From Erwinia aphidicola (GTDB lineage Bacteria; Pseudomonadota; Gammaproteobacteria; Enterobacterales; Enterobacteriaceae), in assembly GCF_024169515.1 (NCBI RefSeq), contig NZ_JAMKCQ010000001.1, positions 62,001-126,000 on the forward strand: a stretch of DNA of 64,000 bases. Reading direction: 5' to 3'. Within the stretch, counting starts at the first letter, position 1. Each line of letters begins with the position of its first letter. This document shows positions 2,015 through 42,651 of the stretch, one piece after another. The notes under the pieces were generated by a model. The model searched no databases and was not told where the DNA came from. It saw only the letters and a list, made by a program, of their open reading frames with translations. The position numbers and the translations under genes were made by a program.

Positions 2015-3148
2015 TCATTCAGCCATCGCGTCACGCTGCCACACCAGCAGGCCGGCGATCAGCAGCGCCACGCCTGCCACATACAGCGCCGGTTCCAGCC
2101 GGTGCGTTAACGCGGTGGAGGCAGCCGACAGCAGCGGCCCGACCAACTGCCCTACCGCATAGCCGGTGGTCAGCAGCCCGGCGAGATAGCGCGTGTGCTG
2201 CGGCGCCAGTTCACGCGCGTACTGCAGCGACAGCTGCACCACGCAGAGGAAGCCGCCGCCGACCAGTGCGGCCCCCAGCGCCAGCCCGCCCAGTCCGGGC
2301 AGCAGATCGGAGGCAAATACGCCTAACGCCTGCACCCACAGCACCAGCGCCAGGCGGCGGTTACTGCTGCCCAGATGACGCGTGAGGATGCCAATCACAA
2401 TGCCGATCACCGCTGCCCCACCAAATACCGGCCAGACAAACTGGCTGATCAGGCCGGGGAAGCGGGTGGTCGCCATCTGGGCCAGAAAGGTGGCGGGCAG
2501 AATGTAACCAAACCCGGCCAGGCTGTAGCTCCACACCAGCCGCTTCAGGCCCGTCGTCAGGCGCAGCGGCTCCGGCGCAATATCCGGGCGATGAAGCTGA
2601 CCGGTGCGTGGCAGCGTGCGGGCGATCAGCGCCACCAGAATCAGCGCCAGCACGCCGTAAGCGGCCCACGCCCAGGCCGCGGAAACCTGCAGGCTATGCA
2701 GCCCGACGGCCAGCATGCCGCTAATAAAAATCCCGGTGCCGGGGCCAGCAAAAACGGCGGCGCTGAGGCCCGGACGCTGGTAGCGGTGCAGCTGCTCGTT
2801 GCTCCAGGCGGCGATCAGCACCATCCCCCAGCCGCTGGCCCAGCCGATCAGGAAGCGCACCACGCCGTGCAGCCACGGCCCGGAGACGCAGGCCGACAGC
2901 AGCGTCAGCAGCACGGCGCCCCAGATGCCGGCCTGTAAGCGCCACTCTACCCGGCGCGTAGCGCGCATGGCGTCAAACGAGCCGCACAAATATCCCAGAT
3001 AGTTTAAGGCCGCCACCACCGCCGCGCTGGTCAGCGACAGCTGATGTTCGGCTATCATTAATGGCACCTGCGGCGTAAAGGCAAAACGCCCAATCCCCAT
3101 TGCTACTACCAACGCCAGAAAGGCGCTAAACGCGACGCGCACAGCCAT
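2015..3148 (-). CDS. YbfB/YjiJ-family MFS transporter
   Basis: A 377-residue, strongly hydrophobic protein with about 12 predicted membrane spans. The N-terminus (FSAFLALVVAMGIGRFAFTP) is the hallmark of the YbfB/YjiJ subfamily of major facilitator transporters, and the AMRATRRVEWR cytoplasmic loop also fits. Substrate is unknown; members are usually annotated as drug or sugar-type exporters. It is divergent from a LysR regulator about 100 bp away, the classic layout for regulator and target, so it is probably controlled by that regulator. There is no equivalent at this place in E. coli. Confidence 0.85.
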   Translation of the reverse strand: MAVRVAFSAFLALVVAMGIGRFAFTPQVPLMIAEHQLSLTSAAVVAALNYLGYLCGSFDAMRATRRVEWRLQAGIWGAVLLTLLSACVSGPWLHGVVRFLIGWASGWGMVLIAAWSNEQLHRYQRPGLSAAVFAGPGTGIFISGMLAVGLHSLQVSAAWAWAAYGVLALILVALIARTLPRTGQLHRPDIAPEPLRLTTGLKRLVWSYSLAGFGYILPATFLAQMATTRFPGLISQFVWPVFGGAAVIGIVIGILTRHLGSSNRRLALVLWVQALGVFASDLLPGLGGLALGAALVGGGFLCVVQLSLQYARELAPQHTRYLAGLLTTGYAVGQLVGPLLSAASTALTHRLEPALYVAGVALLIAGLLVWQRDAMAE

Positions 3149-3250
3149 TTTTACCTCAGATTCTGTTTTTCAGTTGCCACCAGCATGGGGGATGAGTAAA
3201 CTCACGAAAAGTGAATAATAGTAATCAAGTTACTTACAATAAGAGAATAC

Positions 3251-4129
3251 ATGGATCTGACCCAGCTAAAAATGTTCTGTGCCGTGGCCGAAAGCGGATC
3301 GGTGGTGCGCGCGGCGGAGCAGCTTCATCGCGTCCCGTCCAACCTCACCACTCGCCTGCGCCAGCTGGAAGAAGAGCTGGGCACCGATCTGTTTATCCGC
3401 GAAAAACAGCGCCTGCGCCTGTCGCCGATGGGGCATAATTTTCTCTGCTATGCCCAGCGCATTCTGGCGCTGAGCGAGGAAGCGCTCAATATGGCGAAAG
3501 GCGGCGAACCCGCGGGTAATTTCGCGCTCGGTTCGATGGAAAGCACCGCCGCCACTCGCCTGCCCACCCTGTTGGCCGAGTTTCATCAGCGCTATCCGGC
3601 CGTATCGCTGGCGCTGAGTACCGGCACTTCCGGCGATATTATTGAGCGCGTGCGCGCCGGTACGCTGGCCGCCGCGCTCGTCGACGGTCCAATCAACGTT
3701 GATGAGCTGAACAGCTGTAAAGCGTTTCCTGAGCAGATGGTGTTGATCTCAAGCACCGAGCATGCCCTGATAACCCAGCCGGCTGACGCCGCAGGCTGTA
3801 CATTGTTTGGCTTTCGTCCCAGCTGCTCCTATCGCGTGCGCTTTGAGAACTGGTTCCGCGCCGCCGGGGTACAGCCCGGCAACGTGATGGAGATCCAGTC
3901 CTATCACGCCATGCTGGCCTGCGTGGCCAGCGGTGGCGGCCTGGCACTGTTACCCGCCGCCGTGCTGGAGCAGATGCCCGGTCGCGAGCGCGTGCGCCAG
4001 CACCCCATCCCCGCTGAATTACGTGATACCGACACCTGGCTGGTGTGGCGTCGCGATGCTTTCACTCCCAACGTGGAAGCGCTGAAGTACCTGATTATTG
4101 AACAATTTGACGAGAAGTCCAGCGATTAG
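3251..4129 (+). CDS. LysR-family transcriptional regulator, PtrR (YneJ)-like
   Basis: A 292-residue LysR-type regulator: N-terminal winged helix-turn-helix (about 1-60, MDLTQLKMFCAVAESGSVV...VPSNLTTRLRQLEEELG) and a C-terminal periplasmic-binding-like effector domain. Similarity to E. coli PtrR/YneJ, regulator of putrescine use, runs throughout (RVPSNLTTR, FIREKQRLRLSPMGHNFL, GSMESTAATRLP, SYHAMLACV). No putrescine gene lies nearby here, so the ligand may differ. It is divergent from the MFS gene and upstream of frmA in the same direction. The shared 102-bp spacer presumably carries its operator. Confidence 0.88.
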   Translation: MDLTQLKMFCAVAESGSVVRAAEQLHRVPSNLTTRLRQLEEELGTDLFIREKQRLRLSPMGHNFLCYAQRILALSEEALNMAKGGEPAGNFALGSMESTAATRLPTLLAEFHQRYPAVSLALSTGTSGDIIERVRAGTLAAALVDGPINVDELNSCKAFPEQMVLISSTEHALITQPADAAGCTLFGFRPSCSYRVRFENWFRAAGVQPGNVMEIQSYHAMLACVASGGGLALLPAAVLEQMPGRERVRQHPIPAELRDTDTWLVWRRDAFTPNVEALKYLIIEQFDEKSSD

Positions 4130-4161
4130 CAGCGCTTTTCCTCAACCCTGGTTACGCTTAA

Positions 4162-5319
<1,158 letters not shown>

Positions 5320-5330
5320 GCGAGGAAAGG

Positions 5331-6173
5331 ATGCCATCCACACTGGAGCTTTTAGAAGAACATCGCCTGTTTGGCGGCTGGCAGCAGCGCTATCGCCACC
5401 CGTCAACCAGCCTCAACTGCGCGATGACCTTTAGCGTATTCCTGCCTGGCCCAAAAGGCAGTACCCCGCCGCCGGTGGTGTACTTCCTCGCGGGGCTGAC
5501 CTGCAGCGATGAGAACTTCAGCGTTAAGTCCGGCGCGCAGCGCGTAGCCGCCGAACTGGGGCTGGTGCTGGTGATGCCGGATACCAGCCCGCGCGGCGAA
5601 AGCGTTGCCAATGACGAGGGCTATGACCTCGGCCAGGGCGCCGGGTTCTACCTCAATGCCACCGAGGCACCGTGGGCCAGTCATTTTCGCATGTATGACT
5701 ACATCAACGATGAGCTACCGGCGCTGATTTCCGGTAATTTCAACGTCAGCGATCGTCAGGCGATAATGGGGCACTCGATGGGCGGCCACGGCGCGCTGAT
5801 GATTGCGCTGCGTAATCCGGGGAAATTCAGTTCGGTGTCGGCATTTGCCCCTATCGTCAATCCGCTGGAAGTGCCGTGGGGGCAAAAAGCCTTCCGCGCT
5901 TATCTGGGTGATGATGAGACGACGTGGCGTCAATACGACAGCTGCTGGCTGATGCGTAACGGCGGTGCGGTGCTGCCGATGCTGATCGACCAGGGGGACA
6001 GCGATCAGTTCCTCGCCGATCAGCTGCGGCCGCAGCGGCTGGAAGAGATTGCGCTGGAGGTGAAGTATCCGTTAACGGTGCGTGAGCAGCCGGGATACGA
6101 CCACAGCTACTTCTTTATCGCCAGTTTTGTTGAGGATCACCTGCGCTTCCATGCGCAGCATCTGCTGGCATAA
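5331..6173 (+). CDS. yeiG: S-formylglutathione hydrolase
   Basis: A 280-residue esterase-D family alpha/beta hydrolase that splits S-formylglutathione into formate and glutathione. The nucleophile elbow GHSMGGHG places the catalytic serine at 149; the acid is probably in [10 protein letters not shown] and the histidine in GYDHSYFF. It is closer to E. coli YeiG than to FrmB from memory of both sequences (EHRxFGGWQQR start, [15 protein letters not shown] end). GAGGAAAGG precedes the ATG. It is almost certainly co-transcribed with frmA, giving formaldehyde detoxification in one operon. No frmR-type repressor gene is adjacent. Confidence 0.96.
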
Positions 6174-6178
6174 AAATC

Positions 6179-6250
6179 GGGCCGACCGAAACAGAGGGTC
6201 GGCCCCTACATGATTGCGCCCAGAGGCCGACCTTTTTTTCCGGTCGGCCC
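6179..6250. terminator. Two tandem GC-rich hairpins between convergent yeiG and ABC ATPase genes
   Basis: Hairpin 1 pairs GGGCCGACC (6179-6187) with GGTCGGCCC (6197-6205). Hairpin 2 pairs GGCCGACC (6225-6232) with GGTCGGCC (6242-6249) around a T-rich loop. Both belong to the dispersed hairpin family and probably act as a bidirectional terminator for the two converging transcripts. Confidence 0.65.
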
Positions 6251-6254
6251 ATAA

Positions 6255-7040
6255 TCAAAACGCCGGTGATTCAACTAATCCATCAATTAATACCTGCGGG
6301 GTGCCCTGCGAACAGCGCTCAATGCGCCCTTTCACGCCGTACACCCGTGCCAGGCTCTGCGGCGTGATCACCTCTTCTGGCAATCCATCCGCTATCAGCT
6401 CGCCGTTCTGCAACATCAGCACATGCTCACCGTGGCGCAGCGCGATATTGATATCGTGTACCACTACCACCGTGACGATATTGCGCAGCCGCGTTTCGCG
6501 CCGCACCAGATCCATCACGTGGAACTGGTAGTTCAGATCCAGCGCGCTAAGCGGTTCATCCAGCAGCAGCAGCTCCGGGCGGCGGATCAATGACTGCGCC
6601 AGGCCCACCAGCTGCTTCTGCCCGCCGGAAAGCTGGTCGAGATAGCTCAGCGCCAGATGAGCGATCCCCAACTGCTCCAGCAGCGCCATCACTTCCGCTT
6701 CGCTGGCAGCACTGCTCCGCCCGCCGCTGGCGCGCTGCGCCACGATAATCGACTCCAGCACGTGCAGATGCACCCCGGCGGGCAGCGACTGCGGCAGATA
6801 GACCACGCGGCTGGCGCGGCGGGCAAACGGCAGCGCCATCAGCTCTTCACCATTTAGCCACAGCTCACCGGAGGCGCGGTTAAGCCCCGCCAGCGAGCGC
6901 AGCAGCGTCGATTTACCGCAGCCATTCGGCCCCAGCAGTACGGTGATTTTGCCGCGTGGCAGCAGGGGCACATTGAGGTCGCTGATAATCTGGCGCTTCG
7001 GATAACCGGCGTTAAAGCCGCTGATTTTTAACCCCTGCAT
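6255..7040 (-). CDS. ABC transporter ATP-binding protein, iron/siderophore (FecE/FepC) type
   Basis: A 261-residue cytoplasmic ATPase that energises the partner permease. Walker A is GPNGCGKS (37-44), the ABC signature LSGGQ (137-141), and Walker B LLLLDEPLSALD; the overall pattern (KSTLLRSLAGL, LPQSLP) is that of ferric-siderophore/B12 importers. The ATG overlaps the permease stop codon by one base (TGATG), so translation is probably coupled. The open frame extends further upstream, but that part lies inside the permease gene and is out of family. Substrate cannot be told from sequence alone; a ferric siderophore is most likely. Confidence 0.92.
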   Translation of the reverse strand: MQGLKISGFNAGYPKRQIISDLNVPLLPRGKITVLLGPNGCGKSTLLRSLAGLNRASGELWLNGEELMALPFARRASRVVYLPQSLPAGVHLHVLESIIVAQRASGGRSSAASEAEVMALLEQLGIAHLALSYLDQLSGGQKQLVGLAQSLIRRPELLLLDEPLSALDLNYQFHVMDLVRRETRLRNIVTVVVVHDINIALRHGEHVLMLQNGELIADGLPEEVITPQSLARVYGVKGRIERCSQGTPQVLIDGLVESPAF

Positions 7041-8122
7041 CAGACACTCCCTCGGTGGCGCAGAATAATACTCAGGAAGAACGGCACACCCACCAGCGAG
7101 GTCACAATGCCCACTGGAATGATCACACCGGGGATCAAATTCTTCGACACCACCGAGGCCATCGACAGCACCAGCGCCCCGGTCAGCGCACTGGCAGGCA
7201 GATATAAGCGGTGATCTTCGCCAAACAGCATTCGAGCGATATGCGGTGCCACCAGGCCGATAAAGCCAATGGGCCCGACGAACGCCACCGCCAGCGCGGA
7301 GATAATGCTGATGCGCAGCAGCGTCGCGAGGCGCAGGCGGCGCACGTCGATGCCAAAACTGACGGCGCGATCTTCGCCAAGGCGCAGCGCGGTGAGTTTC
7401 CAGCTGCTCAGCAGCGAAAACGGCACCAGCACCAGCAGCGCGATGCACAGCACGCCCAGTTTATCCCACGACGCGCGCGCCAGGCTGCCCATGGTCCAGA
7501 ATACCAGCCCCTGCAGGGTGTCTTCGCTGGCGATAAACTGCATCATCGACACCAGCGCGTTGAAGGTGAACACCAGCGCAATGCCAAACAGCACCACGCC
7601 GGAGGTTGCCACCTGCGTCCAGCGCGTTACCGCATCCAGCATCAGCGCGGCAAACAGCGCAAAGACAAACGCATTGGCGGAGATAAACCACTGATCGGGA
7701 ATGCCCGGAATACCGATGCCCAGCACAATCGCCAGCGCGGCGCCAAACGCGGCGGCGGAGGAGACGCCAAGGGTAAACGGACTGGCCAGCGGGTTATTCA
7801 GGATGGTTTGCATCTCAGCCCCGGCGAGGCCCAGCCCCAGCCCAACCACCACCGCCATCAGCGCATAGGGCAGGCGAATATCCCAAACGATCACCCGGGT
7901 GCCGGCATCAACCGTTTCCGGCGACAGCAGCGTTTGCCACAGCGTGGAGAGCGACAGGCCCGAAGGGCCAAGGGTAAAGTCCAGCACCAGCGAGGCGACA
8001 ATCGCCAGCAGCAGAATCGCCATCATCAGCAGGCGGTGGCGCAGCAGCTGATGGTAGCGCCCCATCACGCCTTCAGGAGGCTGCGCGGCAGAGGTTGCCA
8101 GCGGTTCGTGGGTTACACTCAT
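7040..8122 (-). CDS. ABC transporter permease, FecCD/BtuC family (iron-type)
   Basis: A 360-residue membrane protein with about nine or ten helices and the FecCD hallmarks: LGLGLAGAEMQTILNNPLASPFTLGVSSAA near 96-125, VGPIGFIGLVAPHIARMLFG, and a C-terminal VGVPFFLSIIL. It forms the translocation pore as a homodimer with the downstream ATPase. No binding protein or TonB receptor gene is adjacent, so it must borrow a periplasmic partner encoded elsewhere. A strong Fur-box match lies about 45 bp upstream of its start, pointing to iron-repressed expression. Confidence 0.92.
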   Translation of the reverse strand: MSVTHEPLATSAAQPPEGVMGRYHQLLRHRLLMMAILLLAIVASLVLDFTLGPSGLSLSTLWQTLLSPETVDAGTRVIVWDIRLPYALMAVVVGLGLGLAGAEMQTILNNPLASPFTLGVSSAAAFGAALAIVLGIGIPGIPDQWFISANAFVFALFAALMLDAVTRWTQVATSGVVLFGIALVFTFNALVSMMQFIASEDTLQGLVFWTMGSLARASWDKLGVLCIALLVLVPFSLLSSWKLTALRLGEDRAVSFGIDVRRLRLATLLRISIISALAVAFVGPIGFIGLVAPHIARMLFGEDHRLYLPASALTGALVLSMASVVSKNLIPGVIIPVGIVTSLVGVPFFLSIILRHRGSV

Positions 8123-8166
8123 TTGAATCCCTGTTTTTGTGTTCAGGTGCGATAAAATAGAGCAAA

Positions 8167-8181
8167 TGATAATACGTATCA
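8167..8181. promoter_or_regulatory. Putative Fur box upstream of the iron-type ABC genes
   Basis: TGATAATACGTATCA matches the 7-1-7 Fur consensus TGATAATNATTATCA at 12 of 14 fixed positions. It lies between the permease start and the lysP terminator, where the ABC promoter should be, and is inferred to give repression by Fe2+-Fur. Confidence 0.7.
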
Positions 8182-8210
8182 GTAATATTTGTAATCCCAG
8201 ATTTCAGAAT

Positions 8211-8237
8211 AAAAAAAGGCGCGGAGAGCCCGCGCCT
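8211..8237 (-). terminator. Rho-independent terminator of lysP
   Basis: On the minus strand, GGCGCGG pairs with CCGCGCC (8230-8236 with 8218-8224) around a five-base loop, followed by a run of seven T residues. It lies 20 bp beyond the lysP stop codon. Confidence 0.88.
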
Positions 8238-8257
8238 GAGTTAACTTTCCGCCCGAT

Positions 8258-9724
8258 TTATTTCTCGAATTTCGGGAATTCCATCTCGCTGTACTTCACG
8301 AAACGCGTTTTGCGCGTCAGCTTGAATCCGAACCAGATAATCAGGAACAGCGGGATACCGATGTAGGTTGCCGCCACGCCGCCCCAGTCGATGGTGTCGG
8401 ACAGGAATGCCTGGTAGTTCTGGCCGAGGGTAATAATCAGGCACAGCACGAAGGCGAAGATCGGCCCCAGCGGGAAGAAGCCGGAGCGGTAAGGCAGATC
8501 GGCCAGATCGTGCCCCTGCGCCACATAACCGCGGCGGAAGCGGTAGTGGCTGATAGCAATCCCGAGCCAAGCGATAAAGCCGGTCATGCCCGAGGTATTC
8601 AGCAGCCACAGGTAGACGGTCTGATTACCAAACATGGAGGTCAGGAAGCACAGGCCCGCGACCACGGTGGTGGCATACAGCGCATTACGCGGCACGCCGC
8701 CTTTCGACAGCCTGGCGAAAATGCGCGGCGCTTTGCCTTCAGACGCCAGGGTGTAGAGCATACGCGTGGAGGCGTACATGCCGGAGTTACCCGCCGACAG
8801 TACCGCCGTCAGGATCACCGCATTCATCACCGCCGCAGCCGACAGCAGGCCAGCGTGCTGGAACACCAGGGTGAACGGGCTGACGCTGATGTCTTTCACA
8901 TCGTTGCGCAGCAGGCTCGGGTCGGTGTACGGGATGATCAGGCTGATCACCAGAATGGCCAACACGTAGAATAGCAGGATACGCCAGAACACCTGGCGCA
9001 CCGCGCGCGGAATGTTCTTCGCCGGATCTTCCGATTCCCCGGCGGCGATGCCGATAAGCTCGGTGCCCTGGAAGGAGAAGCCGACAATCATCGCCACGCC
9101 GATCATGGCGGCAAACCCACCGGAGAATGGCGCATCGCCAATCTGCCAGTTGTGCCAGCCCGCGCTCTCACCGCCGCGCAGAATGCCGACGATCATCGCC
9201 ACACCGACAATAATAAAGATGATCACGGTGGCGACCTTGATCAGCGAGAACCAGTATTCCGCTTCGCCGAAGCCTTTCACCGAGATGTAGTTAAGCAGGA
9301 AGATCAGGCAGAGGAACAGCGCGCTCCAGATCCAGCCTGGGGTATCCGGGAACCACCAGGTCATCACCAGCTGTGAGGCGACGAGGTCAACGGCGATGGT
9401 CACCGCCCAGTTGTACCAGTAGTTCCAGCCCAGCGCGAAGCCGAAGCCCTCTTCGACGTATTTTGCGCCGTAGGTAGAAAATGAGCCTGAGACCGGCATA
9501 AACGCCGCCAGCTCACCGAGGCTGGTCATCAGGAAGTAAACCATCAGGCCGATCAGCGCGTATGAGAGTAGCGCCCCGCCCGGGCCAGCCTGCGAAATGG
9601 TCGCGCCAGAGGCGACAAACAGACCGGTACCAATTGAACCGCCAATGGCGATCATCGTTAAATGACGAGCTTTAAGCTCACGCCTTAACCCAGGCGGTTG
9701 TGTTGTTTTTGTGTCATGATCCAT
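8258..9724 (-). CDS. lysP: Lysine-specific permease
   Basis: LysP is an inner-membrane APC-family symporter that imports L-lysine and, in E. coli, also modulates CadC. The 488-residue product matches E. coli LysP (489) in length and in the amino-acid permease signature (LKARHLTMIAIGGSIGTGLF near 18-37) and has 12 hydrophobic spans. It is monocistronic: a strong terminator follows, and a yeiE gene on the same strand lies upstream, as in E. coli. No lysine riboswitch-like leader was seen in the 193 bp upstream. Confidence 0.96.
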   Translation of the reverse strand: MDHDTKTTQPPGLRRELKARHLTMIAIGGSIGTGLFVASGATISQAGPGGALLSYALIGLMVYFLMTSLGELAAFMPVSGSFSTYGAKYVEEGFGFALGWNYWYNWAVTIAVDLVASQLVMTWWFPDTPGWIWSALFLCLIFLLNYISVKGFGEAEYWFSLIKVATVIIFIIVGVAMIVGILRGGESAGWHNWQIGDAPFSGGFAAMIGVAMIVGFSFQGTELIGIAAGESEDPAKNIPRAVRQVFWRILLFYVLAILVISLIIPYTDPSLLRNDVKDISVSPFTLVFQHAGLLSAAAVMNAVILTAVLSAGNSGMYASTRMLYTLASEGKAPRIFARLSKGGVPRNALYATTVVAGLCFLTSMFGNQTVYLWLLNTSGMTGFIAWLGIAISHYRFRRGYVAQGHDLADLPYRSGFFPLGPIFAFVLCLIITLGQNYQAFLSDTIDWGGVAATYIGIPLFLIIWFGFKLTRKTRFVKYSEMEFPKFEK

Positions 9725-9868
9725 GTTTTAACGCTGCGCCTTGCAAAAAATGAGGCGCGATTATAGCAACATGGGCATCCCGGTATAGCGATAACGCCAC
9801 GTTATAAGTTAGCTTCATGATCGGCGGCGGATTATTAGCGCGGGTACGTCAGGTGTAAACCCTCAGCA

Positions 9869-9896
9869 CGGGGCGAGCGGAAAAATGGTCGCCCCC
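9869..9896. repeat. GC-rich hairpin repeat downstream of yeiE
   Basis: GGGGCGAGC (9870-9878) faces GGTCGCCCC (9887-9895) with one mismatch, and CCTCAGCAC precedes it, as in the copies near 31.3 and 52.3 kb. It sits just past the yeiE stop codon and may serve as its terminator. Confidence 0.6.
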
Positions 9897-9917
9897 TGCG
9901 GGGGATCGTCGGCCCGG

Positions 9918-10784
9918 TTACTCGGTGCAGTAACTCAGGAAACGGCTCAGCGCTTTCGAAATATGCTTCTGGCGGTGGTGAATGCGGTACAGCGTGCGCT
10001 TGAGCGCGGGCAGCGGTATCGACACTTCCACCAGCGTTCCCATCTCCAGCTGCTCGGCAATCACCCGCCGCGACAGGCAGCTGATCCCCATGCCGTGGCG
10101 CACCGCATTTTTAATCGCCTCCGAATTGCCCAGCTCCAGCGCCAGCTCAAACTGCGGCAGGTGCGACAGCAGCAGATAATCGACAATCTCACGCGTGCCG
10201 GAACCGTGCTCACGCAGGATCCATGGCGCAGCCGCCAGGCTTTTCAGTGAGACCGGCTGGCTGAGGATCGCGGCACCCGGTGCGGCAAACACCACCAGCT
10301 CATCCTCCAGCCACGGCTCGGTGATGAGCTCGGCCATATGACACGGCCCCTCAATTAAGCCGATATCGACGCGAAAATCCGCCACGGCGGTGATCACATC
10401 CTGACTGTTGCCGACGCTCATCTCCAGCGGCAGCGCCGGGAAATCGCGGCGGTAGTTAGCGATCATCCCCGGCAGTAGATAGTTGCCAATGGTGCTACTG
10501 GCCGACACGCGCAGCGCGCCGTTATCTTCGCGGAACAGCTGCTCGATCTCCAGCGCCTGCTCCAGCAATCCGACCGCGCGCGGATACAGCAGGCGGCCAT
10601 GCTCGTTAATGACCAGCCGTTTACCGACGCGGTCAAACAGCTGCACGCTGAGCTGCCCCTCCAGATCGGCGAGGGCGGCGCTGACGGCCGACTGCGATAG
10701 CGCCAGCACCTGAGATGCCTGGGTGGTCGATCCGCTTTTCAGCACCTCGGTAAAAACTTCCAGCTGGCGCAGCGTGATATGCAT
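9918..10784 (-). CDS. yeiE: LysR-family transcriptional regulator YeiE
   Basis: A 288-residue LysR regulator with an N-terminal DNA-binding helix-turn-helix ([36 protein letters not shown]) and a C-terminal ligand domain. Length and context (lysP-yeiE-yeiH) match E. coli YeiE, which has been linked to sulfite and iron responses in enteric bacteria. It is divergent from yeiH, and the 149-bp spacer is AT-rich with near-palindromic stretches suitable for a LysR operator. That yeiH is its target is inferred from the layout. Confidence 0.93.
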
Positions 10785-35294: not shown

Positions 35295-35396
35295 TAATCC
35301 CGCCCGCTTTTGCCGGGTTTCACCCGGTCAAAGCTGAACAATCCAGACTGCTGCTGGGTCGCCTGTAGCAGGATTAAAAATTGAAGAGACTTAACA
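35295..35396 (+). promoter_or_regulatory. rplY 5' leader, probable L25-binding autoregulatory RNA
   Basis: The sequence TATAATCCCGCC (about 35293-35304) looks like a -10 box at the start of the leader. A CCGGGT/ACCCGG hairpin follows (35313-35327), then an asymmetric stem with GACTGCTGCTGGGTCGCC. An L25 leader that mimics 5S rRNA loop E and mediates autoregulation is known in gammaproteobacteria; assignment here rests on position and the visible stems. Confidence 0.55.
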
Positions 35397-35681
35397 ATGT
35401 TCACTATTAAAGCAGAAACTCGTAAAGAGCAGGGCAAGGGTGCGAGCCGCCGCCTGCGTACAGCTAACAAATTCCCGGCAATCATTTATGGCGGAAACGA
35501 AGCAGCTGTAGCTATCGAACTGGACCACGACTCCGTACTGAACCAGCAGACTAAGCCTGGTTTCTACGAAGAAGTGCTGACTCTGGTTGTAGATGGTAAA
35601 GAAACCAAAGTTAAAGTGCAGGCTGTCCAGCGTCACCCGTTCAAGCCAAAACTGCACCACATCGACTTCGTTCGCGCTTAA
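35397..35681 (+). CDS. rplY: 50S ribosomal protein L25
   Basis: L25 binds loop E of 5S rRNA in the central protuberance. The 94-residue product is the short enterobacterial form ([22 protein letters not shown]-terminal HHIDFVRA) without the CTC extension seen in some bacteria. In E. coli yejK follows directly; here a 5.8-kb insertion separates them. A strong terminator lies about 30 bp downstream. Confidence 0.98.
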
Positions 35682-35734: not shown

Positions 35735-35760
35735 CGTCTGAATATTGTGGTGATTGGGGG

Positions 35761-35841
35761 CGGGCCTCAGCACGCAGCATCCTTCCTGATACCTGTCATT
35801 CCGCGATTATATTTAAATTAATTTTTGTGGGGCTGCTTCAG
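35761..35841 (+). repeat. Dispersed repeat element, truncated copy C (left flank of island)
   Basis: About 80 bp align with both ends of copy A, with its middle deleted: GGGCCTCAGCACGCAGCATCC on the left is joined to CATTCCGCGATTATATTTA and TTTTTGTGGGG on the right. Several base changes suggest an old relic. Its orientation matches copy A and is opposite to copy B at the far side of the island. Confidence 0.72.
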
Positions 35842-35962
35842 AAAAGGTCCATCACATCACTACATTTCATGCATATGAAAAACTGTTAACAATCATTCAT
35901 TAAATAAAGTTTAGCTAAAATATTTTACGGCAGTAGGCTCAATATAATCCTGTAAAGACATA

Positions 35963-36078
35963 TCCCCCAATCTCATCCTGGATGAGGATTATCAATTGAA
36001 GCTTAAAGTAGGATAAAATATTTTTCTCAGCACGAAAGAATCAGAATATATCCCTTCAGGTCTTGTAAAGTAGCCTTT
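35963..36078 (+). pseudogene. Decayed tandem duplicate of the oxygenase gene's leader and first codons
   Basis: This stretch aligns at a fixed offset of 137 bp with the leader and start of the gene at 36133. A 26-base run (36024-36049) is identical to 36161-36186. Read in the same frame, it starts with TTG at 35996 and gives L-K-L-K-V-G-stop, then NIFLSTKESEY and a second stop, against MKLNVDQHILLSTKESEY in the intact gene. The upstream palindrome CTCATCCTGGATGAG corresponds to the CTCACCCTGGAGAG segment before the real gene. A leader-peptide role is conceivable but less likely than decay. Confidence 0.8.
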
Positions 36079-36132
36079 GTATCGTTCTATAAGGATACCA
36101 CCCCAAACCTCACCCTGGAGAGGATTTATCAA

Positions 36133-37206
36133 ATGAAGCTAAATGTAGATCAACATATTCTTCTCAGCACGAAAGAATCAGAATATGTTCGTTCAGTTCT
36201 TGAGAATATTGCTTACGACCCATCGGGTTCTGATTTGTATCTAAACGAAATCCGTAAGGTTGCTTATGCGACATTTCCTGAGCGTGTAATAACAGCAATC
36301 AATCGAATTAAAAGCTTTTCATCTAGCGCTCTCGGTTACTTACAAATTGATAATCTTCCAATAGACAAGGGTGTCACTGGAAGCCCCCGCCACAGAGAAA
36401 CCGGCAATGCATTCAAAAATGGCGTATTAAGCGAAAATGTACTGGTGACGATGGGTGTACTTATCGGTGAACCATATTCTATTGCTCATGAAGGTCATGA
36501 GCTGGTAAATAATCTTACACCACATAAAGAGGCCGCAAAAGAATTTACCGGTCTTGGATCTGAAGTTGAGCTTGATTTCCATATCGAAAATGCCGCACAA
36601 GCGTATATGCCAGAAGGTGACACCTCACCTCTTGCTCTTATATTACTTGGCGTACGTGGTGAACTTCACGGGGGCCCACAGACCCGTATTTCAGACTGCC
36701 GCCGGGCGTTAGAAAAACTTTCTGAGGAAGATATAAAACATCTTTATGGCAAAAATTTTATTATTCGCGTGCCGTACCGTTGGCGTGGCGCTTCTGCTGA
36801 ACCACGTGATAATACGGACTTAAGCCCAATTCTTTCAGGCCCTATCTCTGCTCCACGTGTCACCGTGGCTTTCTACCCTGATATGGTGCTTGCAGTTAAT
36901 CAAAGCGCCAAACAGGCTCTTGAAAACCTTTATCAGGCGGTACGTGAAGTCTCATTTGGCATTCAGATAAACCCTGGCAGACTGATACTCATCAATAACA
37001 GTTTCACTCTGCATTCCCGTGATAGTTTTAAACCCAATTTTGATGAAAATGATCGTGCACTTCGCTGGGTTCAGAGAGTTTTCGTTGCCCGAAACCTGTG
37101 GAACTTCAGAGAGTTCACTGCTGTAGAAGATCGCGTATTTGACCCCACAAACAAAATAGCAGCGTCTGAAAAGACAAATCTTAAAACTGCATCATCAGCA
37201 GCGTAA
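36133..37206 (+). CDS. Fe(II)/2-oxoglutarate-dependent oxygenase, clavaminate synthase-like (probable amino-acid hydroxylase)
   Basis: A 357-residue protein of the TauD/clavaminate-synthase superfamily, which uses O2 and 2-oxoglutarate to hydroxylate, often, free amino acids. The facial triad is H150 and E152 (DFHIENA), and H294 (TLHSRDSF); the HxE form is typical of clavaminate synthase, AsnO, VioC and lysine hydroxylases rather than TauD (HxD). R308, 14 residues after H294 in NDRALRW, is the expected 2-oxoglutarate anchor. GGAGAGG lies nine bases before ATG and may be partly masked by the CCTC...GAGG hairpin. First gene of the four-gene cluster; base composition is visibly AT-richer than its neighbours. 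Substrate unknown. Confidence 0.87.
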   Translation: MKLNVDQHILLSTKESEYVRSVLENIAYDPSGSDLYLNEIRKVAYATFPERVITAINRIKSFSSSALGYLQIDNLPIDKGVTGSPRHRETGNAFKNGVLSENVLVTMGVLIGEPYSIAHEGHELVNNLTPHKEAAKEFTGLGSEVELDFHIENAAQAYMPEGDTSPLALILLGVRGELHGGPQTRISDCRRALEKLSEEDIKHLYGKNFIIRVPYRWRGASAEPRDNTDLSPILSGPISAPRVTVAFYPDMVLAVNQSAKQALENLYQAVREVSFGIQINPGRLILINNSFTLHSRDSFKPNFDENDRALRWVQRVFVARNLWNFREFTAVEDRVFDPTNKIAASEKTNLKTASSAA

Positions 37207-37244
37207 AGCCTTTACGACACCGCTAACGCCAAAAAGGAATGTTA

Positions 37245-38627
37245 ATGAAACCAGCCAGTCGGACATCCCTCAAGCGCTACATTCCGGGTGGCGCCGGTAA
37301 TATAACGGGAACCTTACTTGCAACCAGCTTCGGTTTCATTGTCGTCCAACTGGATGTCACAATAGTGAATGTTGCACTTCCGGAAATTGGAAGCAGCTTA
37401 CGGACAGGTATATCAGGGCTTCAGTGGGTGGTTGACGCTTATACCCTTTCATTTGCTGCCCTGCTGCTTACAGCCGGATCTGCCGGAGACCGGTTTGGAA
37501 GCCGCAATGTTTTTAATGCCGGTCTTTTACTATTCTGTATGGCCTCCCTGACATGTGCGCTTGCACAGTCGGTCGACCTACTTATCGCGGCTCGCTGCCT
37601 TCAGGGTGCCGGCGCGGCGCTTATACTTCCAACCTCTCTGGCGCTACTTTCACACGCGTGCGCAGAAGATTCAGCAGCGAGAAGCCATGCAATCGGATGG
37701 TGGAGTGCTATCGGGGGAGGTGTAAGCGCCATGGGACCGGTCGCAGGGGGGCTTCTCATAACAGGTTTTGGATGGCGCGCCATCTTCCTGGTAAATCTTC
37801 CCGTATGTTTATTAAGCTTGTGGGCAACCCACCGGTTTGTGGCTGAAACACGGGCAACTAAAAGTGAAAGCTTCGATACGCCCGGCCAGATTCTGGCAAT
37901 CTTATTTCTGTTTTTACTCACCTACTCCGTTATTGAAGCCGGGGCAAAAGGATGGTTTTCCTCGGCAATATGGACTGGTTTTATCCTGGCACTAACCACT
38001 GCATTATTATTTCTGGCCAGAGAATCACGGGCTGCAAATCCTATGTTACCGCTCACTTTATTTCGCAGCCCTGTACTAACAATTTCCGTTATTTTAGGAC
38101 TACTTTCAAATCTGACTTTTTATGCCCTGATATTTATTCTGAGTATTTTTTTCCAAAGTGTAAAGGGATATACGCCTACTGAGACAGGGCTGGCTTTATT
38201 GCCTTTTACCGTGATTATAATTGCCAATGTAGCAAGCAGTCGGCTTGCCAGACATTTCACATCCCGCATGACGGTTATTGGCGGCGGAGTTTTATCTGTT
38301 CTTAGCTTCCTGCTTTTACACGGTCTGGAGCAGAATACACCTTATTACGTTATCATGCTGTGCATGATGTTACTGGCGATAGGCTCTGGAATAAGCACGC
38401 CTGCTCTCACATCAGCCATTCTGAGCAATGTCCCGTCAACCTGCTCTGCAACTGCATCGGCCATCTTCAACGCATCACGTCAGGTAGGGAGTGCGCTGGG
38501 CGTGGCGCTGTTAGGCGCCATGATGACAGGTACCACTGATAATATGACAGTGGGCGCCAGTCTTGCCTTTGATATTTCAGCAGTGCTGCGGATGGCCGGA
38601 GTCATACTGGCCGTATTGTTTCTGTAA
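37245..38627 (+). CDS. DHA2-family (EmrB/QacA type) MFS exporter
   Basis: A 460-residue, 14-span major facilitator exporter. Diagnostic motifs are LDVTIVNVALPEIG in helix 1, WVVDAYTLSFAALLLTAG in helix 2, the GDRFGSRNVF loop, and motif C in ISAMGPVAGGLL-like GGVSAMGPVAGG. Its most likely role is export of the cluster product and self-protection, as BacE does in bacilysin clusters; this is inferred from context. The ATG at 37245 follows AAAAAGGA by six bases; an in-frame ATG two codons earlier overlaps that site. It lies 38 bp after the oxygenase gene and 28 bp before the first ATP-grasp gene. Confidence 0.9.
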   Translation: MKPASRTSLKRYIPGGAGNITGTLLATSFGFIVVQLDVTIVNVALPEIGSSLRTGISGLQWVVDAYTLSFAALLLTAGSAGDRFGSRNVFNAGLLLFCMASLTCALAQSVDLLIAARCLQGAGAALILPTSLALLSHACAEDSAARSHAIGWWSAIGGGVSAMGPVAGGLLITGFGWRAIFLVNLPVCLLSLWATHRFVAETRATKSESFDTPGQILAILFLFLLTYSVIEAGAKGWFSSAIWTGFILALTTALLFLARESRAANPMLPLTLFRSPVLTISVILGLLSNLTFYALIFILSIFFQSVKGYTPTETGLALLPFTVIIIANVASSRLARHFTSRMTVIGGGVLSVLSFLLLHGLEQNTPYYVIMLCMMLLAIGSGISTPALTSAILSNVPSTCSATASAIFNASRQVGSALGVALLGAMMTGTTDNMTVGASLAFDISAVLRMAGVILAVLFL

Positions 38628-38655
38628 AGAAATCATTTCAAACAGGAGAGTAAGC

Positions 38656-39813
38656 ATGATGAGGCTTGTAATTATTGGCATCCGCAAAACGGGAACCAGC
38701 CTGACACTGGTTGATACTGCGCTAAACAGAGGGATTGACGTAACAATAATAAGCAACCCCGAGGACAAAATAGACGGAATTTTTTCTCCTGTCGTTGTAA
38801 TAGAGTATATAACCTCAAGTGTCAGTATCATCACTAACTGGATTAAGGGAAATTATCCAACTCCTGAATCCAGCCTGAGAATCACCACGTTAAACGATGT
38901 GTACGCATGTGTTACAGCGCAGGTAAACTCGGCGCTTAATCTTCCAGGGCCAGACGTCTTGTGCGTCTCCCGTGCAGTGTCAAAACATCAACAGAAGAAA
39001 ATATTCAGCGCTAATAAAATACCCACTTCCGGGTTTTGGAAAATTAGCCTTTCAGAACTTGAAAAAAAATCAGAAATCCTCGACAAACTTGAATTTCCAG
39101 TAGTTGTAAAACCCTCAGAGGGGACTGCCAGCAATGGTGTAAAACTATGCAATCTTTACTCTGAAGTCATCAGCCACCTTAATTTCCTTGCCGAACAAAA
39201 AAACCTGAGACCCGACCTGGTTCCCAGCGATATTATTCTTCTGGAAGAATATTTACCAGGTGCAGAATACTGCGTGGAATATTTTGACGGGAAATATGTG
39301 GGAGCCATACGCAAGTCTAAACGTTACGGCAATGATTTTTTTGAACGCGGCTATACTTCAGAACTTAATATAGATGAGAAAGCGCTACGCAATCTTATCG
39401 AAACAGGTTCTCGAGCAGTCGAAGCAGCAGGGCTGAATTGGGGTCCGGTTCATATTGACTGCATTGTGAATGATGGTCTGGCAAGCATTATTGAAATGAA
39501 TCCCAGAATTGCAGGCAGTTTTATCTGTGACATTGTACGCGATGCCTACAGCTTCGACATGATTGAAAACCTTCTCAATAAACTTCAGGGGAAAGACGTT
39601 ACTGTTCCCGTGAAGTTTATTCCTGACGCCTATGCCTGCGTTAATTTTTTCCTGGAAAGCGATCCGCTGCCCTGGGCGTTTGCTGAAAGTGGAGAATTGA
39701 AGAATGACATTATACACATCACTTATGGCCCACAGCACCTGAGGAACCGCAATCGCAGGGCATACGTTTACACAAAAATTTTAATGCGGACTAATCAACT
39801 CGAGACTGATTAA
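38656..39813 (+). CDS. ATP-grasp ligase 1 (putative L-amino acid/peptide ligase)
   Basis: A 385-residue ATP-grasp enzyme. Visible elements are nucleotide-binding K152 in PVVVKPSEGTASNGV, the E197/E198 hinge in LLEEYLPG, and metal-binding residues D268, E280 and N282 in GPVHIDCIV...IIEMNPRIAG, with R284 as catalytic arginine. This pattern is that of carboxylate-amine ligases such as BacD and DdaF, which activate a carboxylate as an acyl phosphate and form a peptide bond. AACAGGAGAG provides the ribosome site; a second ATG immediately follows the first. Its stop is directly joined to the start of the next ligase. Substrates cannot be read from sequence. Confidence 0.88.
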   Translation: MMRLVIIGIRKTGTSLTLVDTALNRGIDVTIISNPEDKIDGIFSPVVVIEYITSSVSIITNWIKGNYPTPESSLRITTLNDVYACVTAQVNSALNLPGPDVLCVSRAVSKHQQKKIFSANKIPTSGFWKISLSELEKKSEILDKLEFPVVVKPSEGTASNGVKLCNLYSEVISHLNFLAEQKNLRPDLVPSDIILLEEYLPGAEYCVEYFDGKYVGAIRKSKRYGNDFFERGYTSELNIDEKALRNLIETGSRAVEAAGLNWGPVHIDCIVNDGLASIIEMNPRIAGSFICDIVRDAYSFDMIENLLNKLQGKDVTVPVKFIPDAYACVNFFLESDPLPWAFAESGELKNDIIHITYGPQHLRNRNRRAYVYTKILMRTNQLETD

Positions 39814-41079
39814 ATGAAATTAATAAATACTGTGGCCATTGTGGATGGTGCATCAACCAGCGCCTATCTGGCGCCTGCTTTTCGTTCTTATGGCATTAAA
39901 TGCGTGCACGTACTCAGCAGTGAGTCACTGCCAGATCGGCTCAAAGTGCAAATCATTCATACAGACTTTATACGTAGTGTCGTTTACCAGGGAGACATTA
40001 GTGTGCTGGCAAATATGCTGAAAGATTTGCAAATCGATGTGGTTTTACCAGGCGGGGGGAGTGGCATTGAGCTTGCCTCCGAACTTGCTGATGCACTTGA
40101 CGTCCCCTATAAAAACCCCGGGCATCTGGCAAAAGCCCGCCGTCATAAATATGAACAGATTGAAATATTGCACCGTAGCGGTTTACTCACGCCAAAACAG
40201 TATCAGTCAGATCAGGTTGCTGGGATCGTGGAATGGACACGCACTCATCTGACCCTGCCGGTCGTGGTGAAACCTACACGCGGAGCAGGTGTAAGCGGAG
40301 TAAAGGTATGCCACACCCTCTCTCAGATCCGGGAGGCTTCTGAAAGCATTCTCAACTCTAAATCTTATTATAATGAAGATCAGAATGAAATTCTGGTTCA
40401 ATCCTGTACAGAAGGTCAGGAATTTATTGTTGACATCGTGTCTTTTAAGGGAATTCACAAAGTTGTCAGCGTATGGCAAGTTGATCGCGACCGCCGCGAG
40501 TCGCCACGGCTTGAAAAAATGATGGTGGTCGATCATACGCAGCAGAGTTACTCACAGCTTATTGATTACGCTAAAAAGGTTTTGAATGTGGTGGGGCTAA
40601 ATTATGGCCCATCACACATGGAAGTTATGTTAACCAGTGAAGGCCCGGTCATCGTTGAGCTGAACTCCCGCCTTCATGGAAGCCTCGACCCTTTATTGAC
40701 CACAGCCGTTACGGGCGAAAACCATGTTTCCGCTACAGTAAACGCCTTTGTTAATACGTCACATTTTATCGACAGCATCAGTCAGGACCCCGTATTCAGC
40801 GGCTTCTGCGGTCATATACTGTTGGTTTCGCCAGTCTCAGATCGTGAATTCAGGGGCTTTCCGTGGGACAGAATTGAAAACCTCCCGTCTTTTGTTAGTG
40901 TAAAGCGCTGGGTGAAGCCCGGTGACATACTTCAGGTCACTACAGGCTTACAGACAGCCATCGGTATGGTCGGATTGTTTCATAAGAAATTCGAACAATT
41001 GGATACGGACTGGAAAGAAATCAGGAAAATTGAAAAAGATTACTTTTCACTACCTCAAATGCCTGCCGAGCCAGCATAG
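39814..41079 (+). CDS. ATP-grasp ligase 2 (putative L-amino acid/peptide ligase)
   Basis: A 421-residue ATP-grasp enzyme. K153 lies in LPVVVKPTRGAGVSGV, a hinge in EILVQSCTEGQEF, and metal and catalytic residues are E270, E282, N284 and R286 in GPSHMEVML...IVELNSRLHG. The N-terminal domain (VLPGGGSGIELASELADAL) matches the pre-ATP-grasp domain of amino-acid ligases. It is not a near-copy of ligase 1, so the pair probably catalyses two successive condensations. The start codon follows the previous stop with no gap, implying coupled translation. Last gene of the cluster; no terminator hairpin is evident before copy B of the repeat. Confidence 0.88.
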   Translation: MKLINTVAIVDGASTSAYLAPAFRSYGIKCVHVLSSESLPDRLKVQIIHTDFIRSVVYQGDISVLANMLKDLQIDVVLPGGGSGIELASELADALDVPYKNPGHLAKARRHKYEQIEILHRSGLLTPKQYQSDQVAGIVEWTRTHLTLPVVVKPTRGAGVSGVKVCHTLSQIREASESILNSKSYYNEDQNEILVQSCTEGQEFIVDIVSFKGIHKVVSVWQVDRDRRESPRLEKMMVVDHTQQSYSQLIDYAKKVLNVVGLNYGPSHMEVMLTSEGPVIVELNSRLHGSLDPLLTTAVTGENHVSATVNAFVNTSHFIDSISQDPVFSGFCGHILLVSPVSDREFRGFPWDRIENLPSFVSVKRWVKPGDILQVTTGLQTAIGMVGLFHKKFEQLDTDWKEIRKIEKDYFSLPQMPAEPA

Positions 41080-41154: not shown

Positions 41155-41391
41155 TGAGGTATCCCCATAAAAATTGATCTGAATATTATCGCGGGATGAC
41201 AGCTGTCGCTTTGAGGAGGAAGGCTGCTTTCAACATAGCCTCATCGTCGCAGTTGTAAACCCACAGCGAGCACAATGATAGCGGGGGCTGAGCTCAGCCT
41301 GAGGTAAGCCGGACGTCACGCGGCAGGGATGCCGCGTGCCGAGGCCCGCAGGGAGCGTCTTTTGCCGTTCCGGCGTGCTCAGACCGGTTAG
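41155..41391 (-). repeat. Dispersed repeat element, copy B (inverted, right flank of island)
   Basis: Read on the minus strand it aligns closely with copy A: CTAACCGGTCTGAGCACGCC, the CACGCGGC/GCCGCGTG hairpin, CTCGCTGTGGGTTTA and CGCGATAATATTCAGATCA are shared. It lacks about 90 bases from the middle of copy A. It fills most of the gene-free stretch between ATP-grasp ligase 2 and yejK; the remaining bases (41392-41490) hold a half-hairpin remnant, GGTCAGCCCCTA. Confidence 0.82.
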
Positions 41392-41490: not shown

Positions 41491-42495
41491 CTACTTCCCG
41501 CTGGTGCGGCGCTGCAGCTGGTCGCGCAGGTTCGGTGGCGTGCCTTTGATGGTCAGCGTGTCCGTCACCGGATCCCAGAAAATACGCTCGCCTAACAGCA
41601 TCGCATCGAAGTTGATGGTTAAGCCGCCGCCGCTGCCGGCAAACTTGGTTAACTGACGCAGCGTGCTGCGATCGGCCGGGAAGCTCTCTTCCAGCTCGTA
41701 GCCCTGCTCCTGGGTAAACGCCTGGAAGGTTTTCTCTCCCAGCGGCGCCAGCTCGTTCGACAACTCCGCCAGTTCAATCTCTTCACCGGACTTCAGCTGC
41801 TCGTTGCAGTAGGTCGAGACCTGCTGGCGATAGTTCTGACGCTCGTTTTTATCCAGGCTCGCCTCTTCGCAGTAATCATCCACCGCCTGTAACAGGCCGC
41901 GGTTCTGCGCTTTGGTGTCCAGCCCGACGCTGGCGCCGAGAAAGTCCATAAAGAAATCGGAGACTTTACGTCCTACCCGCCCGCGCAGGAAGGTGAGATA
42001 GCGCGTCGATTCCGGATTGGTTTCCCACTCGGTCAGATCGATACGCGCGACAATATCCGCGTGGTTGATATCCAGATAGTGCGTGCTGCTGATATCCAGC
42101 TCTTCATTAACGCGCATGCTGTTCTGGCTGCTGAGCACCGCAATCAGCAGGTACTCAACCGCCAGATAGCGGTAGTGGCCGAACAGCACAATGCCGCCTT
42201 CCGCAAACGGGTACTTGCCCAGCTCATCGCGCAGGCGTGCGCTGGCCGCGCGGCTGAACGCCAGGAAGTCATTCTCACCCTTGCGGCAGTTACGCAGCGC
42301 ATCGGCCAGCTCGCTCTCTTCATTGAACAGGCCGTAGGCTTTGCTCTTGGCGCTGTAAACACGATGCAGCTCTTCCATCATCGCCGTCACGGTCACATTG
42401 GACGGCAGCAGTGAATCGCGCAGGACCAGCTCAAGCGTTTGTTCGTCACGTTTGATCATCTGGTGAAGGGCAATCTGGTCGATATCCAGACTCAT
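41491..42495 (-). CDS. yejK: Nucleoid-associated protein YejK (NdpA)
   Basis: A 334-residue (E. coli 335) nucleoid-associated protein that interacts with topoisomerase IV and gyrase in E. coli. It starts [19 protein letters not shown] and ends with the [13 protein letters not shown] [11 protein letters not shown] segment. The ATG at 42495 is chosen by alignment and a GGAGAG ribosome site; the frame stays open 13 codons further up. It is divergent from yejL-yejM, as in E. coli. Confidence 0.96.
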
Positions 42496-42651
42496 GGTAA
42501 ACTCTCCTTTAAGCACAGGCGCGTATTCAATCACTGTGCGCCTTTACGATCAACTGCAACAAGTTTACGCGGATGATTACGATAAAAATGCAGAAAAAAA
42601 TGCGCTCTTACGGTAAGATAGCGCCTTTTAAATCTCAGTAAAATTGACCTC

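Follow-up and report, generated by a model that had tools for sequence, protein, structure and literature searches.

A horizontally acquired oxygenase, exporter, and ATP-grasp ligase set in Erwinia aphidicola with a predicted small-peptide product

A 64,000-nt stretch of Erwinia aphidicola DNA (assembly GCF_024169515.1, NZ_JAMKCQ010000001.1:62,001-126,000, forward strand), called here the window, carries four genes in a row that encode an Fe(II)/2-oxoglutarate oxygenase (Ox), an exporter of the major facilitator superfamily (MFS), and two ATP-grasp ligases, AG1 and AG2. We propose that this set probably works as a carrier-free biosynthetic unit, in which an oxidised amino acid would be built into a di- or tripeptide that is then exported, likely as an antimetabolite against competing microbes. 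The four genes are intact, evolve under purifying selection, and form a horizontally acquired kit that is moving horizontally over the gamma- and betaproteobacteria. As an earlier note on this DNA had described, they are collinear, with intact reading frames in one direction and gaps of 38, 28, and 0 bp, and they form an AT-richer block (46.0% G+C vs. 57.1% for the window).

A pattern-based scan with Ox over 84,980 species genomes, which misses remote relatives by design, gave 25 loci, 22 of which hold all four families. The complete set was found in Erwinia, Pantoea, Robbsia, Paraburkholderia, Burkholderia, and Variovorax, that is, in the Erwiniaceae, Burkholderiaceae, and Comamonadaceae, and these loci are not independent, since 14 of the 25 are from Burkholderia and one is from the window's own species. 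The order of the genes is Ox-MFS-AG1-AG2 in Variovorax and Ox-MFS-AG2-AG1 in Robbsia, while in Burkholderia Ox is divergent from MFS-AG2...AG1, one Burkholderia locus (L012) being without AG1. The order is thus rearranged between genera while the set persists, and this argues for a joint function of the four genes, which the earlier note had taken as one unit; homologues standing consistently alone or in unrelated operons were not what the neighbourhood survey found. Ox also matched seven of 72,556 plasmid records, one of them (Vibrio) only partially, and the plasmid carriers are Pantoea alfalfae, P. agglomerans, and Rahnella sikkimica. The ratio of nonsynonymous (dN) to synonymous (dS) divergence of the four genes is 0.06-0.10 vs. 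P. alfalfae and 0.06-0.13 vs. Pantoea sp. Mb-10, with dS near saturation, and 0.11-0.27 within the species. Because the set recurs in three families and on a Rahnella plasmid and keeps a low dN/dS, it is more than a chance assembly. Within Erwinia, Ox is present at high identity in two of 37 genomes, both of E. aphidicola (99% identical in strain JCM 21238), and a third hit, at 31% identity, belongs to a different cluster; at 1e-60, AG2 is found in three of 392 Erwiniaceae genomes, in one of them at only 40% identity.

A YejK search of 36 Erwinia genomes gave 20 loci, or 18 once the two E. aphidicola loci were excluded, and in 17 of these 18 rplY and yejK are only 55-181 bp apart, the remaining stretch holding no rplY, whereas this distance is 5809 bp in the window and reaches 5930 bp in the other E. 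aphidicola locus (L004). The 17 empty sites bear out the insertion between rplY and yejK that had been read from the window. In a close-match search, positions 36133-39900 had no match in E. coli genomes.

Both ligases resemble enzymes that join amino acids. AG2 scores 307.4 bits against PRK07206 (cut-off 302), and its top solved match is the L-amino acid ligase 30vh (profile E 1.1e-60), while for AG1 the L-amino acid ligase BL00235 comes first by sequence and, with the predicted fold, by Foldseek and by Z, with BacD/YwfE second by Z, the identity of AG1 to BacD, BL00235, and RizA being 14-19%. The ATP-grasp lysine and the E-x-N-x-R positions, whose roles we presume, are kept in AG1 (K152, E280, N282, R284) and in AG2 (K153, E282, N284, R286), as expected from the earlier claim that both ligases retain their ATP and metal residues. 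By their fold or sequence relation and these residues, AG1 and AG2 are predicted to act as L-amino acid (dipeptide) ligases, and the comparisons support a place closest to these enzymes; the grouping with primary-metabolism (purine) enzymes that would have spoken otherwise was not found. The exporter matches PF07690 at 156.7 bits and the DHA2/EmrB family TIGR00711 at 223.4 bits, just short of its cut-off of 230.2.

Ox scores 36.1 bits against the TauD family PF02668 (cut-off 27), with a weak CsiD match besides, and it stands closest to enzymes that hydroxylate amino acids, its nearest solved relative being AsnO (2og5, profile E 3.8e-21). The iron ligands H150, E152, and H294, already picked out in the earlier note, are the same in every sequence of two alignments (9 and 10 sequences, counting the window's), but R308, named there together with them, is present and yet variable (Ser in the Pseudomonas locus L027). 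The arginines of the RWVQR motif, R311 and R315, are invariant, and in the alignment they fall on the Arg-Trp...Arg of AsnO, of an arginine beta-hydroxylase, and of clavaminate synthase; we take them to be the 2-oxoglutarate arginine and a second arginine, and R311 is the likely 2-oxoglutarate arginine of Ox because R308 varies while these two positions are invariant and fit the AsnO-type motif. With the triad and R311 invariant and TauD above its cut-off, Ox falls among the clavaminate synthase-like Fe(II)/2-oxoglutarate enzymes. Two positions that are Asp in both AsnO and the arginine hydroxylase 4m23 are alanines in Ox (Ala240 and Ala246); in the same alignment, CAS1 and a lysine hydroxylase share the first Asp with AsnO and have the second two columns later.

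Of the four genes, AG1 is the variable one. In the comparison of the two E. aphidicola strains, it is 81.6% identical vs. 96.5-98.9% for Ox, MFS, and AG2, and its dS is 0.344 vs. 0.045, 0.117, and 0.085 for Ox, MFS, and AG2, respectively (synonymous chi-square p 2.4e-16). The DNA identity of this pair is mostly 97-100% at ~36.3-38.0 kb and 93-95% at 38.0-38.5 kb, goes down to 72-94% at 38.5-39.8 kb, and is 98% again from 40.3 kb. The dS of AG1 is likewise the highest in two Pantoea/Rahnella pairs (L001-L002, p 2.0e-10; L002-L005, p 4.7e-9), and in Burkholderia, over 105 to 120 pairs of related loci, its mean dS (0.302) and dN (0.066) are the highest, those of the other three genes being 0.226-0.243 and 0.026-0.045. 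This excess is not universal across pairs: it is absent in L001-L005 (p 0.17) and between the near-identical L002 and L031, and of the 10 Variovorax pairs only 5 put AG1 first by dS, with AG2 often second. Synonymous divergence raised in this way within a species suggests that relaxed constraint is not the only cause and that AG1 may have been exchanged with an unsampled allele or may persist as long-kept alleles.

Between genera, compared on seven representative loci, AG1 lies 24 points below the core in Paraburkholderia-Burkholderia (48% vs. a mean of 72%), reaches 50% in Robbsia-Variovorax vs. 68-69% for the core, and falls 18-21 points below the mean of the other three for Robbsia vs. Erwinia, Pantoea, and Variovorax, with other pairs between -14 and +4. 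The end branches of AG1 are 1.67 in Robbsia and 1.97 in Paraburkholderia whereas those in the trees of Ox, AG2, and MFS measure 0.13-0.44. These identities and long branches are suggestive of a replacement of AG1 in both genera, yet approximately unbiased (AU) tests allow common descent, rejecting neither Robbsia+Enterobacterales (p 0.363) nor Paraburkholderia+Burkholderia (p 0.345), and the former clade is well supported by AG2 alone (100/99; 55/16 in Ox and 67/64 in MFS), so we leave the replacement as not established. We put forward, only tentatively, a steady core of Ox, AG2, and exporter with an exchangeable AG1 slot, whose alleles, swapped or diversifying from one strain or genus to another, might pair the same oxidised residue with a different partner amino acid in each carrier and so give strain-specific peptides.

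In the proposed pathway, Ox would use Fe(II), O2, and 2-oxoglutarate to oxidise an amino acid or else a residue within the finished peptide, either by hydroxylation or, e.g., by desaturation, and AG1 and AG2 would each spend ATP on converting a carboxylate into an acyl phosphate and join that to an amine, yielding a di- or tripeptide. Judging by the conservation of each ligase, the steadier AG2 would take the oxidised residue, and the variable AG1 its partner. The MFS protein would export the product, thereby also protecting the producer, and the exported peptide would most likely act as an antimetabolite on competing microbes; we infer here the substrates, the order of the steps, the direction of export, and the target. 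Either order of oxidation and ligation is possible, because oxidation follows ligation in mangotoxin, a product of Pseudomonas syringae. Of the interpretation in the earlier note, the single unit and the nearness of the ligases to L-amino acid ligases have stood, but the specifically hydroxylated di- or tripeptide and its competitive role were not confirmed.

Several points weigh against our proposal. The pathway is read from the genes and the AG1 fold model, its product, substrates, and activity being predicted. The scores of AG1 against the BacD equivalog (42.8 bits, cut-off 850) and of AG2 against the DdaF equivalog (219.8 bits, cut-off 840) stay below the cut-offs, Ox misses the NCBIfam equivalogs GntD (101.3/345 bits), Cs1 (84.2/450), and VioC (63.8/418.6), and the AlphaFold model of Ox was poor (predicted local distance difference test score 56.9) and was kept out of the fold searches. 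There is no separate immunity gene among the four genes, and the Pseudomonas (L027) and Halomonas (L028) loci have the oxygenase without ligases or exporter. Finally, on three Pantoea/Rahnella plasmids, a TetR gene precedes the set, and three more genes come after it, namely a third ATP-grasp gene (AG3, 44% identical to AG1), a pyridoxal phosphate (PLP) enzyme (PRK07505, 485 bits, cut-off 342), and a flavin mononucleotide (FMN) monooxygenase of the NtaA/DmoA family (TIGR03860, 349.8 bits, cut-off 279.7); the TetR gene and these three have no counterpart in the Erwinia set.

From these extra genes it could be argued that what Erwinia carries is only the broken remnant of a seven-gene Pantoea/Rahnella pathway, making no complete product. 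AG3, the PLP enzyme, and the monooxygenase are indeed not beside the Erwinia cluster, in the window's genome the best match to AG3 is AG1 itself at 44% and the best match to the monooxygenase is 38% identical, so that neither has a close orthologue there, no genome-wide search having been made for the PLP enzyme, and the leader of Ox is duplicated. We consider a remnant very improbable, given that Variovorax, Robbsia, and Paraburkholderia likewise have the four genes without this trio in the stretches examined, that Pantoea sp. Mb-10 retains the four genes and only a partial AG3, and that the four Erwinia genes are intact and under purifying selection. It is somewhat less improbable, although still doubtful, that the ATP-grasp enzymes make something other than a peptide, such as a cyclic amide, an ester, or an amino-acid-derived small molecule; the top places of BL00235 and then BacD/YwfE for AG1, and of an L-amino acid ligase for AG2, argue for peptide bonds instead.

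The nature of the oxidation and the target leave more room. Hydroxylation by Ox is not a given, because the protein lies outside the characterised NCBIfam equivalogs and has alanines for two aspartates, and there is a real, if minor, chance that Ox desaturates its substrate, or works on the peptide once it is ligated, rather than hydroxylating a free amino acid, so that the product would have a dehydro residue. Mangotoxin is oxidised as the finished tripeptide, according to the excerpted text of PMC13185094. The alanines in place of the Asp residues of AsnO and 4m23 fit this alternative as well, and so does the amidohydrolase gene that directly follows the oxygenase relative in L027 and L028 (no gap or a 4-bp overlap), the Pseudomonas amidohydrolase matching a solved enamidase at E 3.1e-98. 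Nevertheless, these two loci are the ones without ligases and exporter, their oxygenases are only 49-50% identical to Ox, and the RWxxR motif points to a free alpha-carboxylate. The same chemistry might also serve a peptide that targets a plant or insect host, or a signal, instead of microbial competitors, which we regard as unlikely. The plasmid-bearing Pantoea/Rahnella isolates came from soil, alfalfa seed, and flour, and mangotoxin, a product of a like pathway, is a plant antagonist with antimicrobial and herbicidal action in the excerpted account of PMC13185094; on the other hand, the cluster holds nothing specific to host targets, the dedicated DHA2-type pump suits self-protection, the diversification of AG1 suits microbial conflict at least equally, and the carriers include Burkholderia species of mixed habitats.

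Coordinates of the four genes and of the features around them in the window
Feature	Position	Strand	Remarks
rplY, left chromosomal neighbour	35397-35681	+	L25 leader at 35347-35372
Left copy of dispersed genomic repeat	35760-35782	+	22 genome matches (<=3 mismatches)
Tandem duplication, copy 1 (Ox leader and first codons)	35932-36065	+	134 nt; 75% identical, spacing 137
Tandem duplication, copy 2, containing the Ox start	36069-36202	+	134 nt
Ox, Fe(II)/2-oxoglutarate oxygenase (clavaminate synthase / AsnO / VioC type)	36133-37206	+	357 aa; PF02668 TauD
MFS exporter, DHA2/EmrB-like	37245-38627	+	460 aa; PF07690; ATG start at 37245 matches the Pantoea start; mechanical open reading frame opens at 37239
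AG1, ATP-grasp ligase, variable member	38656-39813	+	385 aa; ATP-grasp_4 (Pfam)
AG2, ATP-grasp ligase, PRK07206 subfamily, distant DdaF relative	39814-41079	+	421 aa; ATP-grasp_4 (Pfam)
Right copy of the same repeat, inverted	41327-41349	-	within ~140-bp unit
yejK, right chromosomal neighbour	41491-42534	-	from locus comparison

The inverted repeats that flank the insert were considered as the ends of a mobile element of its own, and this was rejected because the same 23-nt sequence is dispersed over the genome in 22 copies (at <=3 mismatches; the reversed control gave 0), although the two copies may still have served recombination. Six of the 22 core matches stand in one array of the ~140-bp repeat at a spacing of ~360-410 bp (L080, G000:C1:579300-582300). 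The duplication of the Ox leader is found in both E. aphidicola copies, which are ~94% identical over 35932-36202, and the leader is single in L001, L002, and L005; a frame of six codons opens in the first copy, its start codon being ATG in L004 and TTG in the window. A promoter scan gave 9 matches vs. 8.5 expected, that is, the level of chance.

Related loci show further arrangements. An SBF-family permease lies in the Ox stretch of 18 of the 25 loci (13 of the 14 Burkholderia, plus L022, L025, L007, L027, and L028, which cover Paraburkholderia, two of five Variovorax, Pseudomonas, and Halomonas), with none among the Erwinia, Pantoea, and Robbsia loci, and it is possibly a second exporter or an importer. 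L027 (6834-11170) and L028 (7968-11208) have the oxygenase relative, then the amidohydrolase, and this permease, with no ligases, and in L027 a fatty-acid-desaturase-family gene also stands just upstream. On the R. sikkimica plasmid, AG2 (L001:15801-17059) is frameshifted, and the record annotates only a 912-bp part. Another Erwinia (L082, G001:C33:14000-26000, ~2298-7541) has a different row, with an AsnA-like synthetase, a VioC/GntD-like oxygenase, an ATP-grasp protein, an MFS protein, and an Asp/Glu racemase. A 2.8-Mb Erwiniaceae genome (L081, G168:C44:48000-62000, 7022-10013) has relatives of AG2 and MFS at ~40%; next to them lies a 121-aa frame without a Pfam match that, by eye, is similar to the N-terminus of Ox, perhaps a decayed or alternative version.

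The importance of this locus is that of a compact, intact, horizontally moving pathway across gamma- and betaproteobacteria without a described product in the open-access literature searched, where we found no recognisable published description of the four-gene set, just as the earlier note had supposed. Because it comprises just three soluble enzymes and one membrane protein, its chemistry could be rebuilt in vitro, and if the AG1 slot does set the partner residue, it would offer a natural diversity of ligases for peptides with an oxidised amino acid and an example of how specificity is switched in a pathway with stand-alone ligases.

Among known enzymes, Ox has in common with AsnO, VioC, clavaminate synthase, and GntD the HxE...H triad, the RWxxR motif, and significant profile matches, but it differs from them in missing the equivalog cut-offs, in having alanines at two positions that are aspartates in both AsnO and an arginine hydroxylase, and in its company, since 22 of 25 loci combine it with an exporter and two ligases. 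The dipeptide ligases BacD of bacilysin, BL00235, and RizA are similarly distant from AG1, the BacD cut-off being far off. Dapdiamide (dda) of Pantoea agglomerans is alike in that DdaF is a distant relative of AG2 and an Fe/2-oxoglutarate oxygenase takes part, but it has its own adenylating ligase DdaG and tethering nonribosomal peptide synthetase (NRPS) protein DdaD, as given in the excerpted text of PMC12568646, neither family being represented in the four genes. In the fungal E-64 pathway, treated in the same excerpts, an Fe/2-oxoglutarate oxygenase is likewise followed by stand-alone amide-forming enzymes including an ATP-grasp enzyme, for which no detectable identity to other characterised ones is reported there; its oxygenase, however, epoxidises fumarate, and its second amide-forming enzyme is an adenylating synthetase (PMC12568646). 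Pantoea Natural Product 3 (PNP-3; MN807451), from a survey of twelve Pantoea clusters, has eight genes, 8,487 bp, and 49.06% G+C and is reported from Pantoea only in the portion of PMC11350110 consulted; it differs in size and G+C from the Pantoea version found here, whose seven genes take up 8,941 bp (10,012 bp once TetR is counted) at 50.2-50.9% G+C. In mangotoxin, the six-gene mbo cluster makes an NRPS-free tripeptide with an oxidised residue by means of one oxidase and the ATP-grasp ligases MboC and MboD, and its own features are a heme-oxygenase-like diiron oxidase, a dedicated flavin/iron-sulfur reductase, and the guanidino-hydrolysing MboE, as far as the excerpts of PMC13185094 describe it; none of these three families is represented in the window's four proteins, which have only TauD (with weak CsiD), MFS, and ATP-grasp-fold Pfam matches. 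The window's cluster nevertheless shares with mangotoxin the two free-standing ATP-grasp ligases beside an oxidase, and because this logic has been reconstituted for mangotoxin, according to the same excerpts, it supports our proposal of a carrier-free peptide pathway.

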